Below the pieces are notes generated by a model. It searched no databases, was not told the origin of the DNA, and saw nothing but the letters and a program-made list of their open reading frames with translations. From assembly GCA_011369465.1 (NCBI GenBank), contig DRQG01000077.1:1-32152 (forward strand): 32,152 nt of DNA, given 5' to 3'. Of this stretch, positions 21,579-27,419 are shown in pieces (position 1 is the stretch's first letter; each line of letters opens with the position of its first letter). A program made the position numbers and the translations under genes. The DNA is from Caldithrix abyssi (GTDB lineage: Bacteria; Calditrichota; Calditrichia; Calditrichales; Calditrichaceae).

Positions 21579-22475
21579 TTATTTTAGCCGCTGATCATTA
21601 TAGTCCCGTAAAATTCGGTAATAATCACGGATCAGCAAAGTAACCCGCGGGCCGGGGATGAGACTGTAGTTGCCGTCAATTACGTAAATATGGCCTTCCT
21701 TTACCGCCTTTAATTGTTTCAGATTTTGCCATTCTTTTTTATTGTTTCGTCGACGCTGCTCATCCCATTTTTGGTTAAATCTGAATTCAATGATCAAATC
21801 GGGATTCATAGTCAGCAGGCTTTCACTATTCAACTGACCGTATTTGAGGCCGGCTGATTCAAATGCATTCCGGCCGCCCAGCATGCGCCACAAATCGTCG
21901 GTAAAGGTATTGCCGCCGATTACCGAAATATTACGGGTTGTGCCGGGATCGCGGTGCAGTACAAAAAGCGCCTCGGGCGAAGCATGCGGCAATTGTTGAG
22001 CCAGACGGCGAAAGATTTCCAGCGAATCCCTGATCGTTTTGGCCAGTTTTTCCGCGCGCCTGCTCAAATCAAACAAACGCCCCAATGTATCGATGGTGGC
22101 AAAGATATCCTGCAAGCGATCGTTGGGCAGCAAAACTGCCCGGATGTTCCGCTGTGCAAGCTGTGCAGCCAGATCTTCGCTTGCAGGGGTGGCCAGCAAA
22201 AGGTCGGGTTTTAGGGCAATAATGCGTTCCAGATTCGGATTGAGCAGTCCGCCTACCCGCGTTTTTTGCCGGGCCCGGAGAGGATAGTTGCAAAAGTCGC
22301 TCACTCCCACCAAAAAATTTTCCGCTCCCAAAGCGTAGATGGTTTCGGTAATATTGGGCGAAAGGGAAATAACCCGGCGTACGGTTGAGTCGTTTTTGTC
22401 CGCATTTTGTCCGCAACTCCACAGAATCGTGAAAATGATGACTAAAACGAACGGGATTTTTTTCTTAAATAGCAT
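21579..22475 (-). CDS. btuF: BtuF-like corrinoid-binding lipoprotein
   Basis: This 298-residue substrate-binding protein belongs to the helical-backbone (BtuF/FhuD) class. With the ATG at 22475 the signal has a lipobox LWSC at Cys21. The mature part opens with the family pattern RRVISLSPNITETIYALGA, followed by VGVSDFCNYP and RVGGLLNPNLERIIALKPDLLLA, all typical of B12-binding members. The second lobe has IGGNTFTDDLWRMLGG. It would hand cobalamin to an inner-membrane ABC importer, but no BtuC or BtuD lies in the window. An in-frame TTG nine bases upstream is an alternative start; no clear Shine-Dalgarno sequence favours either. Iron-siderophore binding is the main alternative; the riboswitch and neighbours favour cobalamin. 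Confidence 0.85.
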   Translation of the reverse strand: MLFKKKIPFVLVIIFTILWSCGQNADKNDSTVRRVISLSPNITETIYALGAENFLVGVSDFCNYPLRARQKTRVGGLLNPNLERIIALKPDLLLATPASEDLAAQLAQRNIRAVLLPNDRLQDIFATIDTLGRLFDLSRRAEKLAKTIRDSLEIFRRLAQQLPHASPEALFVLHRDPGTTRNISVIGGNTFTDDLWRMLGGRNAFESAGLKYGQLNSESLLTMNPDLIIEFRFNQKWDEQRRRNNKKEWQNLKQLKAVKEGHIYVIDGNYSLIPGPRVTLLIRDYYRILRDYNDQRLK

Positions 22476-22582
22476 TTTATACAAAATGAACAGGCTTTCT
22501 TTTTAGGCCCGGGCGGTGCGCTGTAATGATACCAAAATCCGTATTGTAATATTGGTTGAACAATTCATTACAGCGCTGCGGG

Positions 22583-23703: not shown

Positions 23704-25833
23704 TCATTTATCCAGAGCCAGCTCCAGCCGGATACCATATTGTCTGGGCGGCATAGGATACCCGGATATAATTTGATAGCTTTGATCGAACAGGTTATCG
23801 ATATGAAAAAGCAGAGTGAGCTTCTGCCTGTATAACACGGTATCAAAGGACAGCCAGATGCGCCACACGCTCACCGAAGGCAATATGCTCTGCGGATTGT
23901 TTAGCAGAGTAGTATAGCGGAAACTGGAGTACCAGCCGTTGACGCCGGCGGAAAACAGTCCGTGATTTGTTTGTAAAGAAAGGTTTACCTGCTCATCCGG
24001 CAGGTAAGGCAGTTGATTACCCACGGTGCGGTCGCCCTCAAAATCCGCTTTGTTCTTGCGGCTGCTTCCACGAGTATATTTTACCTGCAAGATATAGCGA
24101 TCGTCGGGAGTGGCCAACCGCGCATCCGCTTCGATTCCGCGGCTGAGCACCTGGCCGATATTTTGCGGCGTCCAAACCTGCCCGACGGGCAGCCATTTAA
24201 TCAGATTGGTAACCCGGTTGGTATAATAGGCAGCCTGCAAACGCAGATAAACCACGTCAGCCAGCAGGTTTTCATAGCTCAGGCCGACTTCTCCAAAAAT
24301 GCTGCGCTCCGGTAAGAGATGGGGATTGCCTCCCGGCTGCCAGTACAAGTCGTTGAAGGAAGGAGCGCGGTAGTTGCTGCCCAACGACAGATAGGCATTA
24401 AAGACGCCAATCCGGTAGCCGGCGCCGATACCGGGTAGCAAAAGCACCGGGAAGTCCGAATAGGCTTCGGTGCGCAGGCTGGCGTTTAAATGAACTTCGG
24501 ATGAAGCATCCGGATTGTGATATATTTGCCAATCGGCTAATACAAAACCGGCGGTGCGGCGGCGGGTATGCCGGCCGGCTTCCGAACTTTGAATTTCCTG
24601 CCGGGATGTTTCCAGTCCGCCGTTGATAAGCAGACGGGGATGAACCGGATATCGTCCGCGCAGAATGAAGCCGCTTTCACGATTAAAATGACGGCTGTGC
24701 AGAGAGGCGCCGCCGATATTCAAAAGAGGATCGCGGTATTCCATCCATTCGTTGCGTAAAAAAGCGCGCGCGGAAATCTGTCCGCTGCGGCCCTGCCAAT
24801 GTGTGTACACTTGCAGCAGAGTCTGGTCGCCGCTCAGACGGGCGCGGTTGGCTTCTTCGCCTGCGGCGCCTAAAAAGGCTTTGGGCGAACCTCCTTCGCT
24901 TTTGATGGCATGCAGCAAAGCGCCAAAACGAAAATCGGCATTTACAGCATATTCCGTTCTGTATTGCATAATTTGTCTTGAAAAATCCCGATTTTGCAAT
25001 GGGACCGATTGACCTTCCGAAGAAACGCTGTAATTATTAACACCGCTTTGATTCAAAAAAGAAATACTTTGACGAACACCGGCCAGCGGTATTTGCAAAG
25101 CCAGACCGAATTCCCGGTTACCGAACGAAGCCAGGGAGCCGTTTAACCGATAGCCGAAACTTTTTTCCGGAGCGGTTGTTCGCAAATTAACCGTACCGCC
25201 AATGGACCCGCTGCCCCCAAACAGGGCGCTTCCGCCGCGGTATATCTCCGCTTCGGCTATGGAATACAGATCGAATTGTCCCAAATCCACCGAACCCAAC
25301 TGTAAATTGTTCACCGGCACGCCGTCCAGAAGCACTTGTGTCTGTTCGGCGCTCATTCCCCGCAAGGCGATGGTTTGCAGCTGTCCGGCGCCGCCGTAGG
25401 ATTTAATGAAGATACCGCTTTCTTGGGATAAAGCGGAGGCCAGATGTCCAAATCCGTGTTCGCGGTTTTGATCCAATCGGAGACGAGTAATATGTGCCGG
25501 CAATACGGGTCTTTGCCCGGAGGCGGCCTCGCGCACCACAACGATCGGTTCTGTGCTTGAAATGGGTTCCAGAAAAATAATTTTTCCGGAAAACCCGGAC
25601 AGATCAACTCGTATCGGAAAGTAGCCGGTACGCTGTACCAGAATGGTCGGCTTGCCTTTCATCCGCAGCAAACCGTCCTTTCTCAGCGTCAGGCTGTCCC
25701 GGTCAATAATCACCTGTACGCTGTCCAGCGGAAGGCCGGTCCACATATCGCAAATTCGGTAAACTTCGGCCGTAAGCGTACCGGTAAAAAGGGTGATGCC
25801 GATTATTACATTAAAAATACGATTCATTTTCAT
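23704..25833 (-). CDS. btuB: BtuB-like TonB-dependent receptor
   Basis: This 709-residue outer-membrane receptor probably imports cobalamin. A signal peptide (1-22) is followed by a small carboxypeptidase-regulatory-like beta domain (about 24-92), a TonB-box-like EPIVVV at 95-100, the plug with SYGGAGQLQTIALRGM and QVLLDGVPVNN (145-176) and SGSIGGTVNLRT (208-219), then a beta barrel to the C-terminus. The cobalamin riboswitch in its leader is the main reason for the substrate call; the sequence alone fits TonB receptors for several ligands. Two ATGs lie six bases apart at the start; the first is used here. AGGA is about 13 bases upstream and sits in a small AATCC/GGATT hairpin, so translation may also be controlled. 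Confidence 0.88.
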   Translation of the reverse strand: MKMNRIFNVIIGITLFTGTLTAEVYRICDMWTGLPLDSVQVIIDRDSLTLRKDGLLRMKGKPTILVQRTGYFPIRVDLSGFSGKIIFLEPISSTEPIVVVREAASGQRPVLPAHITRLRLDQNREHGFGHLASALSQESGIFIKSYGGAGQLQTIALRGMSAEQTQVLLDGVPVNNLQLGSVDLGQFDLYSIAEAEIYRGGSALFGGSGSIGGTVNLRTTAPEKSFGYRLNGSLASFGNREFGLALQIPLAGVRQSISFLNQSGVNNYSVSSEGQSVPLQNRDFSRQIMQYRTEYAVNADFRFGALLHAIKSEGGSPKAFLGAAGEEANRARLSGDQTLLQVYTHWQGRSGQISARAFLRNEWMEYRDPLLNIGGASLHSRHFNRESGFILRGRYPVHPRLLINGGLETSRQEIQSSEAGRHTRRRTAGFVLADWQIYHNPDASSEVHLNASLRTEAYSDFPVLLLPGIGAGYRIGVFNAYLSLGSNYRAPSFNDLYWQPGGNPHLLPERSIFGEVGLSYENLLADVVYLRLQAAYYTNRVTNLIKWLPVGQVWTPQNIGQVLSRGIEADARLATPDDRYILQVKYTRGSSRKNKADFEGDRTVGNQLPYLPDEQVNLSLQTNHGLFSAGVNGWYSSFRYTTLLNNPQSILPSVSVWRIWLSFDTVLYRQKLTLLFHIDNLFDQSYQIISGYPMPPRQYGIRLELALDK

Positions 25834-25974: not shown

Positions 25975-26011
25975 GTACCCTTTATCCGCCCGCGCAGATT
26001 TCGGGGAAAGG

Positions 26012-26165
26012 CCATTTCAGTCGGTCTCCTGACTCAAGCGTCATCCTACTTGCCGGGCCTTCCCATCCCGAATCCTCGGAACAGTGGCGTGAAATCCGGC
26101 TTTCGTCGGCTATTACAGTTGCGGGGCAGTGGCGGAATTTCACCGCGCTTCCCGTTACTGAATGG
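26012..26165 (-). promoter_or_regulatory. Cobalamin riboswitch aptamer
   Basis: On the minus strand the RNA has the conserved adenosylcobalamin aptamer parts in order: GGGAAGCGCGGTGAAATTCC, GCCACTGCCCCGCAACTG, the AGCCGACGAAAGCCGG stem, and the B12 box GAGTCAGGAGACCGACTGA (26017-26035). The closing P1 helix is visible, CCATTCAGT at the 5' end pairing with ACTGAAATGG at the 3' end with one bulged A. It lies in the 5' leader of the TonB receptor operon, about 180 bases before the start codon, and should lower expression of the uptake genes when adenosylcobalamin is abundant. Confidence 0.95.
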
Positions 26166-26196
26166 TTCGTATATAAAGAACAAATAAACCGGTTGA

Positions 26197-26225
26197 AATA
26201 TAGAAGATTAGGCAATGGATTTCAA
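26197..26225 (-). promoter_or_regulatory. Sigma70-type promoter of the cobalamin uptake operon
   Basis: On the minus strand, TTGAAA (26220-26225) and TATATT (26197-26202) are separated by 17 bases. The predicted start of transcription near 26190 lies about 25 bases before the first helix of the riboswitch aptamer, which is the expected geometry. Confidence 0.6.
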
Positions 26226-26286: not shown

Positions 26287-26721
26287 TTACAATTCGCGAA
26301 TAACGGCCGAAACCTTGCCGATAATTTCGAATCCGGGGGTTTTGGGATCGATGATTACCGGCTGGCTGTTTTCGCCGCTTGTTTCCAGACGGACAAGATT
26401 TTTTTGCGTAAATTTTTTACGGATAAACAAACGGCTGCCCAATTTGACGGCAACGATGTCCCCGTCGCGTACGCGGGCTTTTAGATCGACGGTTAAAAAA
26501 TCGCCTTGCAAAATACCGTCGGCAGAAAGCCCGTTATCCACCGAACGCACGGTTATGAAAGGAGTGTCTTTCTTGCGGAAATTTTTTATCAATTCGCCTA
26601 AATTATAATTTCCTCCGCTGTTAAAAGGGCCGTCCACGTGCACTTCGCCCATATCCTCAACCAGCGGGATATTATAAAACTCGTTGCTCTTAAAAACATC
26701 TTCTTTAATAAACAGATTCAT
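26287..26721 (-). CDS. LexA/UmuD-fold protein lacking cleavage site and catalytic dyad
   Basis: This 144-residue protein has no DNA-binding domain and appears to consist of one S24-type (LexA C-terminal) domain. Alignment by eye with the LexA encoded just upstream is good over ADGILQGDFLTVDLKARVRD and FEIIGKVSAVIREL. At the key places residues differ: the Ser of GDSM becomes Gly64 (VDNGLS), the catalytic Lys becomes Arg101 (FIRKK) with the same 37-residue spacing, and the Ala-Gly cleavage bond becomes Asp30-Gly31. It therefore cannot self-cleave by the usual mechanism. It begins 19 bases after the lexA stop, so it is likely co-transcribed and SOS-controlled. I chose the ATG at 26721; an in-frame TTG inside lexA would add 15 residues. 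The function is unknown; it may dimerise with LexA. Confidence 0.72.
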   Translation of the reverse strand: MNLFIKEDVFKSNEFYNIPLVEDMGEVHVDGPFNSGGNYNLGELIKNFRKKDTPFITVRSVDNGLSADGILQGDFLTVDLKARVRDGDIVAVKLGSRLFIRKKFTQKNLVRLETSGENSQPVIIDPKTPGFEIIGKVSAVIREL

Positions 26722-26740
26722 ACCATAATTCTGCAAACAA

Positions 26741-27355
26741 TTAATTAATTTCGCGAACCAGCCCAACCACCTTGCCTTGTATCGACCATTCGCTTTCGGG
26801 ATAAATATCGTCGTACTGCGGATTTTCGGCCTTTAAATAGGCTTTCCCTTTTTCCAGCATCAATCGTTTTACCGTTACTTCATCGTGTAGCAAGGCGACC
26901 ACAATATCGCGGTTATGAGCGGTATTGGTGGAATTGACAACCACTAAATCGTCCTCAAAAATTCCGGCGTTGATCATGCTGTCGCCGCGGACTTTTAAGG
27001 CAAAATAGCGGCCTTCGGATTTAATGAGGGCGCGGGGAATGGGGATATAGCGTTCCACATTTTCCTGAGCTAAAATGGGGAAGCCGGCGGCAACCCGACC
27101 AATAAGCGGAACATTCACCTCGTTCTGGCTTGCCGGCGCATATTCGGAATCGATGATCCGCAGGGCGCGGGCCGAGGAATCTTTTTCCAGATACCCTTTG
27201 GCCACCAGAGCGTCGATATGTTTGAGAATGGCGTATTTGGATTTAATGTTGAGCTTGTCAGCCAGCTCCTGGTACGAGGGCGGGTAGCCTTTTTCATCAA
27301 TGTAGCCGGAAATCAGCCTTAAAATTTCTTTTTGGCGGTTGGTTAACGCTTTCAT
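26741..27355 (-). CDS. lexA: LexA repressor
   Basis: This 204-residue SOS repressor and self-cleaving protease has an N-terminal winged helix (1-68; TNRQKEILRLISGYI, SYQELADKLNIKS, ALVAKGYLEKD), a cleavage bond Ala90-Gly91 in GRVAAGFP, nucleophile Ser126 in GDSMINAG and catalytic Lys163 in VTVKRL. The ATG at 27355 is chosen because AGGGG precedes it and because the protein then starts at the usual MKxLTxRQxE; an upstream in-frame TTG would run into the operators. A consensus promoter and two palindromic operators lie directly upstream, implying autorepression. RecA-bound single-stranded DNA would trigger cleavage. Confidence 0.96.
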   Translation of the reverse strand: MKALTNRQKEILRLISGYIDEKGYPPSYQELADKLNIKSKYAILKHIDALVAKGYLEKDSSARALRIIDSEYAPASQNEVNVPLIGRVAAGFPILAQENVERYIPIPRALIKSEGRYFALKVRGDSMINAGIFEDDLVVVNSTNTAHNRDIVVALLHDEVTVKRLMLEKGKAYLKAENPQYDDIYPESEWSIQGKVVGLVREIN

Positions 27356-27357
27356 AG

Positions 27358-27387
27358 TGTACCCCTGTATAAATGTACTTGAGTACA
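27358..27387. promoter_or_regulatory. Two tandem LexA operators, GTAC-N4-GTAC type
   Basis: The site at 27374-27387, TGTACTTGAGTACA, has perfect five-base inverted arms. The site at 27358-27371, TGTACCCCTGTATA, has one mismatch. Their centres are 16 bases apart, so dimers would lie on roughly opposite sides or in partial contact along the helix. The first site covers the predicted transcription start and the second lies next to the ribosome binding site. The GTAC-N4-GTAC core resembles the cyanobacterial LexA box rather than the CTG-N10-CAG or GAAC-N4-GTTC types. Confidence 0.75.
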
Positions 27388-27390
27388 CCA

Positions 27391-27419
27391 ATTATATGAA
27401 AAATTGCGTTTGTTGTCAA
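27391..27419 (-). promoter_or_regulatory. Consensus sigma70 promoter of lexA
   Basis: On the minus strand, TTGACA (27414-27419) and TATAAT (27391-27396) are both perfect consensus boxes with exactly 17 bases between them. The predicted start falls inside the upstream LexA operator, so the repressor should block initiation. Confidence 0.85.

Follow-up and report, generated by a model that had tools for sequence, protein, structure and literature searches.

A LexA-fold pseudoprotease conserved beside lexA across the phylum Calditrichota

The window analysed here, a 32,152-nucleotide stretch of Caldithrix abyssi DNA (contig DRQG01000077.1) from a genome of 4.3 Mb, encodes on its minus strand a LexA repressor of 204 amino acids (26741..27355; TIGR00498, 212 bits; PF01726) that retains an intact winged helix, the Ala90-Gly91 cleavage site and the catalytic residues Ser126 and Lys163. 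The cleavage and dyad sites are invariant across 21 Calditrichota LexAs. Immediately downstream, on the same strand, lies an open reading frame of 144 codons (26287..26721, from the ATG at 26721 to the stop at 26287), which the initial annotation had described as a single-domain S24 protein with all catalytic features replaced, starting 19 bases after lexA. Both the frame and the gap (26722..26740, minus strand; lexA ends at 26741) were confirmed.

The lexA gene is preceded by a sigma-70 promoter-like site, TTGACA-17-TATAAT, that matches at 12 of 12 positions (27391..27419, minus strand), and the palindromic LexA box TGTACTCAAGTACA is located just 3' of the -10 box (27374..27387, minus strand). 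The same kind of motif was found 5' of lexA in 27 of 28 loci, and only three perfect boxes are present in the entire 4.3 Mb genome, compared to none for the reversed control pattern. No second promoter-like site was detected on the minus strand between that of lexA and the dead S24 gene, the 19-base gap contains neither a LexA box nor a clear Shine-Dalgarno sequence, and a LexA box of the lexA type directly preceding the S24 gene was not found in any locus examined. As already proposed in the initial annotation, lexA and the S24 gene are predicted to be co-transcribed in the window, with LexA itself as the regulator. The apparent lack of a Shine-Dalgarno sequence hints that translation of the second gene may be coupled to that of lexA and proceed at a lower level, although the start codons from which this is read are themselves predicted.

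The next gene downstream encodes a TonB-dependent receptor (23704-25833) with its own promoter-like site and a cobalamin riboswitch (Rfam RF00174, 88.6 bits; 26004-26201, minus strand), followed further on by a gene for a periplasmic binding protein (21579-22484); together these genes probably constitute a vitamin B12 uptake locus. The two other perfect LexA boxes of the genome reside on different contigs. One (L131:401-414; G000:C143) is followed after about 30 nt by a YjbR-family gene (PF04237), which probably belongs to the SOS regulon as well. The other (L130:1501-1514; G000:C79) precedes an uncharacterised ORF, behind which comes a small ORF encoding a heavy-metal-associated-like CxxC motif.

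The 144-residue product matched the Pfam family PF00717 with 32.4 bits, above the cut-off of 23.3, and scored below the curated cut-offs for both LexA (TIGR00498, 37.8 bits; cut-off 110.95) and UmuD (NF007621, 26.2 bits; cut-off 110); by these cut-offs, it is neither of the two. The absence of a winged helix from the protein, previously noted from the translation, was borne out by the lack of a PF01726 match. Structure prediction yielded the fold of the LexA/UmuD C-terminal domain rather than an unrelated one: the core of the AlphaFold model, spanning approximately residues 51-140, has pLDDT values above 90, and residues 1-39 are of low confidence. A Foldseek search against the PDB retrieved LexA C-terminal domains first (1.7 A rmsd, 26% identity), then UmuD' and lambda CI, and a profile built from 30 members of the family likewise placed LexA on top (Thermotoga maritima 3k2z, E = 8e-13), with UmuD' lower. 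In the profile alignment, the protein and the adjacent LexA share about 21% identity.

The same alignment superimposes LexA Ser126 on Gly64 (codon 26530..26532, minus strand) and Lys163 on Arg101 (codon 26419..26421, minus strand), with 37 residues separating the two positions in both proteins, in full agreement with the replacements initially read from the sequence. Among the 28 aligned family members, the nucleophile position is occupied by Gly in 13, Ala in 8, Arg in 3, and Gln, His, Ser and Thr in one each, and none possesses the Ser-Lys dyad. A shifted alignment that hides an intact dyad was considered and rejected given that no column of conserved Ser exists among the 28 members; the only Lys present in at least 60% of them is at position 136 (17/28), within the C-terminal strand. 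The catalytic Lys position, by contrast, is Arg in all 28 proteins, and this strict replacement suggests that the site has been re-used rather than left to decay. Asp62 (codon 26536..26538, minus strand), which corresponds to the Gly of the LexA GDSM motif, is Asp in 26 of the 28 and could possibly serve as a salt-bridge partner of Arg101. Apart from Arg101, the invariant residues are Pro19, Asn47, Asp74, Pro129, Gly135 and Val137. One of the earlier observations did not hold at the level of the family: Asp-Gly at residues 30-31, taken as the counterpart of the Ala-Gly cleavage site, is not a family feature. Gly31 was found in a single one of the 28 members and residue 30 is variable, so that the family preserves no vestige of a cleavage site. 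What the gene encodes is a conserved pseudoprotease that consists of just the LexA/UmuD C-terminal domain, with the Ser-Lys dyad replaced. The C-terminal strand, with the shared pattern 'G-K/R-V-x-x-V-I-R-E', is common to this protein and LexA; it is the strand through which this fold dimerises, and it includes the invariant Gly135 and Val137.

A search of relatives for lexA followed by a short dead S24 gene, suggested by the initial annotation, detected homologs in 32 of 40 Calditrichota genomes, in 31 of which the gene adjoins lexA. These comprise 30 intact loci and two partly masked or damaged copies, both adjoining lexA. Of the intact loci, 29 have the S24 gene 3' of lexA and in the same orientation, and the remaining one is at a contig end. 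The distance between the two genes ranges from -4 to 258 nt in 27 loci and is 1573 nt, with two ORFs in between, in two. In two sister genomes (L047, L048), two additional ORFs of 276 and 251 amino acids are found on the same strand between lexA and the S24 gene. The eight genomes without the S24 gene also show no lexA match; the two genes being adjacent, assembly gaps may account for most of these joint absences. The gene is present in the single-contig 4.98 Mb genome G001. Outside the phylum, the best profile match among 250 genomes scored 94 bits, compared to 152-195 for intact members, and those matches that we inspected proved to be dyad-containing S24 proteins of the ordinary kind. A second S24 frame near lexA was encountered in none of 33 loci from other phyla and in all five Calditrichota loci of the same set. 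An origin from phages or plasmids was considered and rejected: there was no phage match, viral contigs held no relative, and plasmids gave only a weak match to umuD.

The replacement of all catalytic positions and the rate of evolution, about 2.75 times that of the LexA C-terminal domain, are what one would expect of a functionless lexA duplicate in decay. The frame, however, is intact in 30 genomes spanning six families and is under purifying selection (dN/dS 0.06-0.19), residues such as Asn47, Asp74, Arg101, Pro129, Gly135 and Val137 are invariant, and the single copy that looks broken comes from a 62%-complete assembly. Purifying selection and phylum-wide retention refute decay, to which we assign next to no probability. 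None of the three outcomes that the initial annotation had named as refuting its reading was observed. Retention of the gene throughout the phylum makes a real job in the DNA-damage response very likely.

The evolutionary distances in the trees of the dead protein and LexA are correlated (Mantel r 0.86, 0/2000 permutations), which points to joint vertical descent of the two genes, and the dead proteins form a single clade (support 100/100). The initial annotation had aligned the protein with the C-terminal half of its neighbor; a simple equation of the two was not supported. The family profile scores a median of 56 bits against LexAs of other phyla (hhalign score 129.5), versus 41 bits (hhalign 79) against the neighboring LexA and 39 bits (hhalign 91) against UmuD, so that, by profile comparison, LexAs of other phyla are nearer to the protein than either the LexA next door or UmuD. 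In the phylogenetic trees, the family belongs neither to the clade of Calditrichota LexAs nor to that of UmuD, and in the larger tree it falls outside a UmuD clade of 17 sequences with support of 100/100. The trees nevertheless do not settle the exact position of the family: approximately unbiased (AU) tests did not reject a sister relationship to the Calditrichota LexAs (p 0.10 and 0.30) nor, for the smaller tree, a grouping with UmuD (p 0.17). A recent duplication of the adjacent lexA is accordingly not supported by either the profile scores or the shape of the trees, yet it is not statistically rejected. The simplest reading is that the gene descends from an ancient paralogue of LexA type whose DNA-binding domain was lost.

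Downstream of the dead gene, 17 genomes encode an 84-amino-acid DUF6504 protein (PF20114, just over the cut-off), in most cases no more than 0.9 kb away; from its gene context, we equate this protein with a standalone ImuB-C. A DinB-type polymerase is also encoded downstream in 11. This arrangement resembles the lexA-imuB-C-polY operon of Geobacter, in which lexA is followed by a standalone ImuB-C and a Y-family polymerase, although the passages cited from that report mention no dead S24 gene in the interval from lexA to imuB-C (PMC6511836). The pseudoprotease could be an adaptor of the UmuD' type that escapes cleavage. In this reading, single-domain S24 subunits would form a homodimer that docks to a Y-family polymerase or to the replication clamp; being made only after SOS induction, it would be controlled by expression alone, with no need for RecA-triggered cleavage. 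The architecture, a short arm followed by an S24 domain within 144 amino acids, is UmuD-like, the helix 'LGELIxN' at residues 41-50 recalls 'LDLNEhLI' of UmuD, and DinB as well as UmuC is bound by UmuD and UmuD' (PMC5342242).

Several observations run counter to such an adaptor. The ImuB-C/DinB pair is sited elsewhere in a number of genomes, that of the window among them, the module being unlinked in at least eight; the relocated pair often has a LexA box of its own 18-23 nt upstream, whereas the dead gene never moves along with it and remains beside lexA. In one such SOS module away from lexA (L099:3490-5826, minus strand), DUF6504/ImuB-C, a 23S rRNA-intervening-sequence protein and a DinB-type polymerase are encoded by consecutive genes, the first of which has a LexA box with one mismatch 23 nt upstream. 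Strict dependence on the module can be rejected: four genomes (G005, G010, G028 and G030) retain the dead gene without an ImuB-C/DinB-B pair, and among them G005 and G030 (97% complete) also lack umuDC, whereas G010 and G028 keep it despite carrying a separate umuDC of their own with the active site intact. In addition, UmuD scores below LexA in the profile comparisons, and the trees place the family outside the UmuD clade. An adaptor may nonetheless act with the second DinB, which is nearly universal. Overall, we regard a role in polymerase docking as a serious, if uncertain, possibility. Separate umuDC genes encoding UmuD with an intact dyad are present in G010, G015, G028 and G031 (L132, L133, L134 and L135); all four genomes appear to be without the DinB-B polymerase, as if one had replaced the other.

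The protein might also act on RecA. As an uncut occupant of the groove in the RecA filament in which LexA and UmuD dock, it would slow LexA cleavage and limit the SOS response through negative feedback. Its fold is that of the RecA-binding domains (PDB 8gms, 8gmt, 8trg and 8s7g are among the Foldseek matches), and it is predicted to be made while SOS is on; the segment with the cleavage site, which occupies the active site, shows no conservation in the family, however, and we consider this decoy function improbable.

Both the fold and the principle of a pseudoenzyme are known from other systems, whereas the phylum-wide pairing with lexA appears to be new. With the LexA C-terminal domain, the protein shares the fold (1.7 A rmsd), the C-terminal dimer strand and about 20-26% identity, and it differs from LexA in lacking the winged helix, the cleavage site and the dyad. 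It resembles UmuD/UmuD', the Pol V subunit, in its single S24 domain, short N-terminal segment, predicted SOS control and frequent proximity to polymerase genes, yet it has no Ser-Lys dyad, is placed outside the UmuD clade by the trees and is not in an operon with umuC, its neighbor being lexA and the downstream polymerase, where present, being DinB-like; four of the genomes that carry it have genuine UmuD genes in addition. The C-terminal domain of phage 186 CI, which has the LexA-like fold without being a peptidase and bears Arg152 in the place of the catalytic base, provides a precedent for Arg in place of the catalytic Lys, but is part of a phage repressor that acts in lysogeny and not a standalone gene behind lexA (PMC12984324). 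SipA of Streptococcus pyogenes is a signal-peptidase-fold pseudoenzyme that lost the dyad and acquired a new role, although it belongs to another family of the superfamily and functions in pilus assembly (PMC12984324). UmuDAb of Acinetobacter is an S24 regulator of SOS that needs a dedicated small partner, DdrR (PMC11332147). This genus is not known to have a LexA. In the open-licence literature that we searched on Caldithrix LexA, inactive LexA/UmuD paralogues and LexA heterodimers, no system of this kind was described, in line with the initial impression. As for DdrR, we know of no relationship to the S24 fold.

We tentatively favor, at somewhat less than an even chance, the reading in which the dead protein, itself not cleavable, binds LexA and serves as a modulator dedicated to this switch; the UmuD'-like polymerase adaptor is nearly as likely. 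The initial annotation had proposed both possibilities. Conservation of the C-terminal dimer strand would allow either homodimers or pairing with the C-terminal domain of LexA, and it is the absolute tie to lexA, in combination with this strand, that favors the latter. We count for the LexA partnership that the gene keeps its place next to lexA in genomes where the ImuB-C/DinB module is missing or unlinked, that the two genes are jointly absent and share their vertical descent, and that the LexA box and promoter lie upstream of lexA, no locus having a LexA box that directly precedes the dead gene. Furthermore, a single mode of dimerisation prevails among S24-fold proteins (10 of 12 structures; PMC12984324), and UmuD and UmuD' preferentially heterodimerise (PMC5342242). 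On the other side, inspection by eye of the dimer strands of the dead protein and LexA revealed no lineage-specific matching, and the distance from the neighboring LexA (about 21% identity) makes homodimers insulated from LexA equally possible. Genes behind lexA in other bacteria, moreover, are often SOS effectors rather than LexA modulators.

If the protein works by pairing with LexA, the heterodimer would contain a single winged helix and a single cleavable subunit. The partner, which cannot be cut, would outlast LexA during the SOS response and could take up newly made LexA, so that the return to repression would be delayed or graded. The SOS switch of Calditrichota might then be a two-protein device, composed of LexA and a non-cleavable pseudo-LexA from the same transcript, that sets the threshold or duration of the response throughout the phylum, a possibility we put forward with caution. 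Few bacterial switches have been studied as closely as LexA, which is usually portrayed as working with RecA only. A lexA-linked pseudoprotease retained across an entire phylum suggests that the repressor may have a built-in partner or, alternatively, that a UmuD-type polymerase manager may operate there without cleavage.
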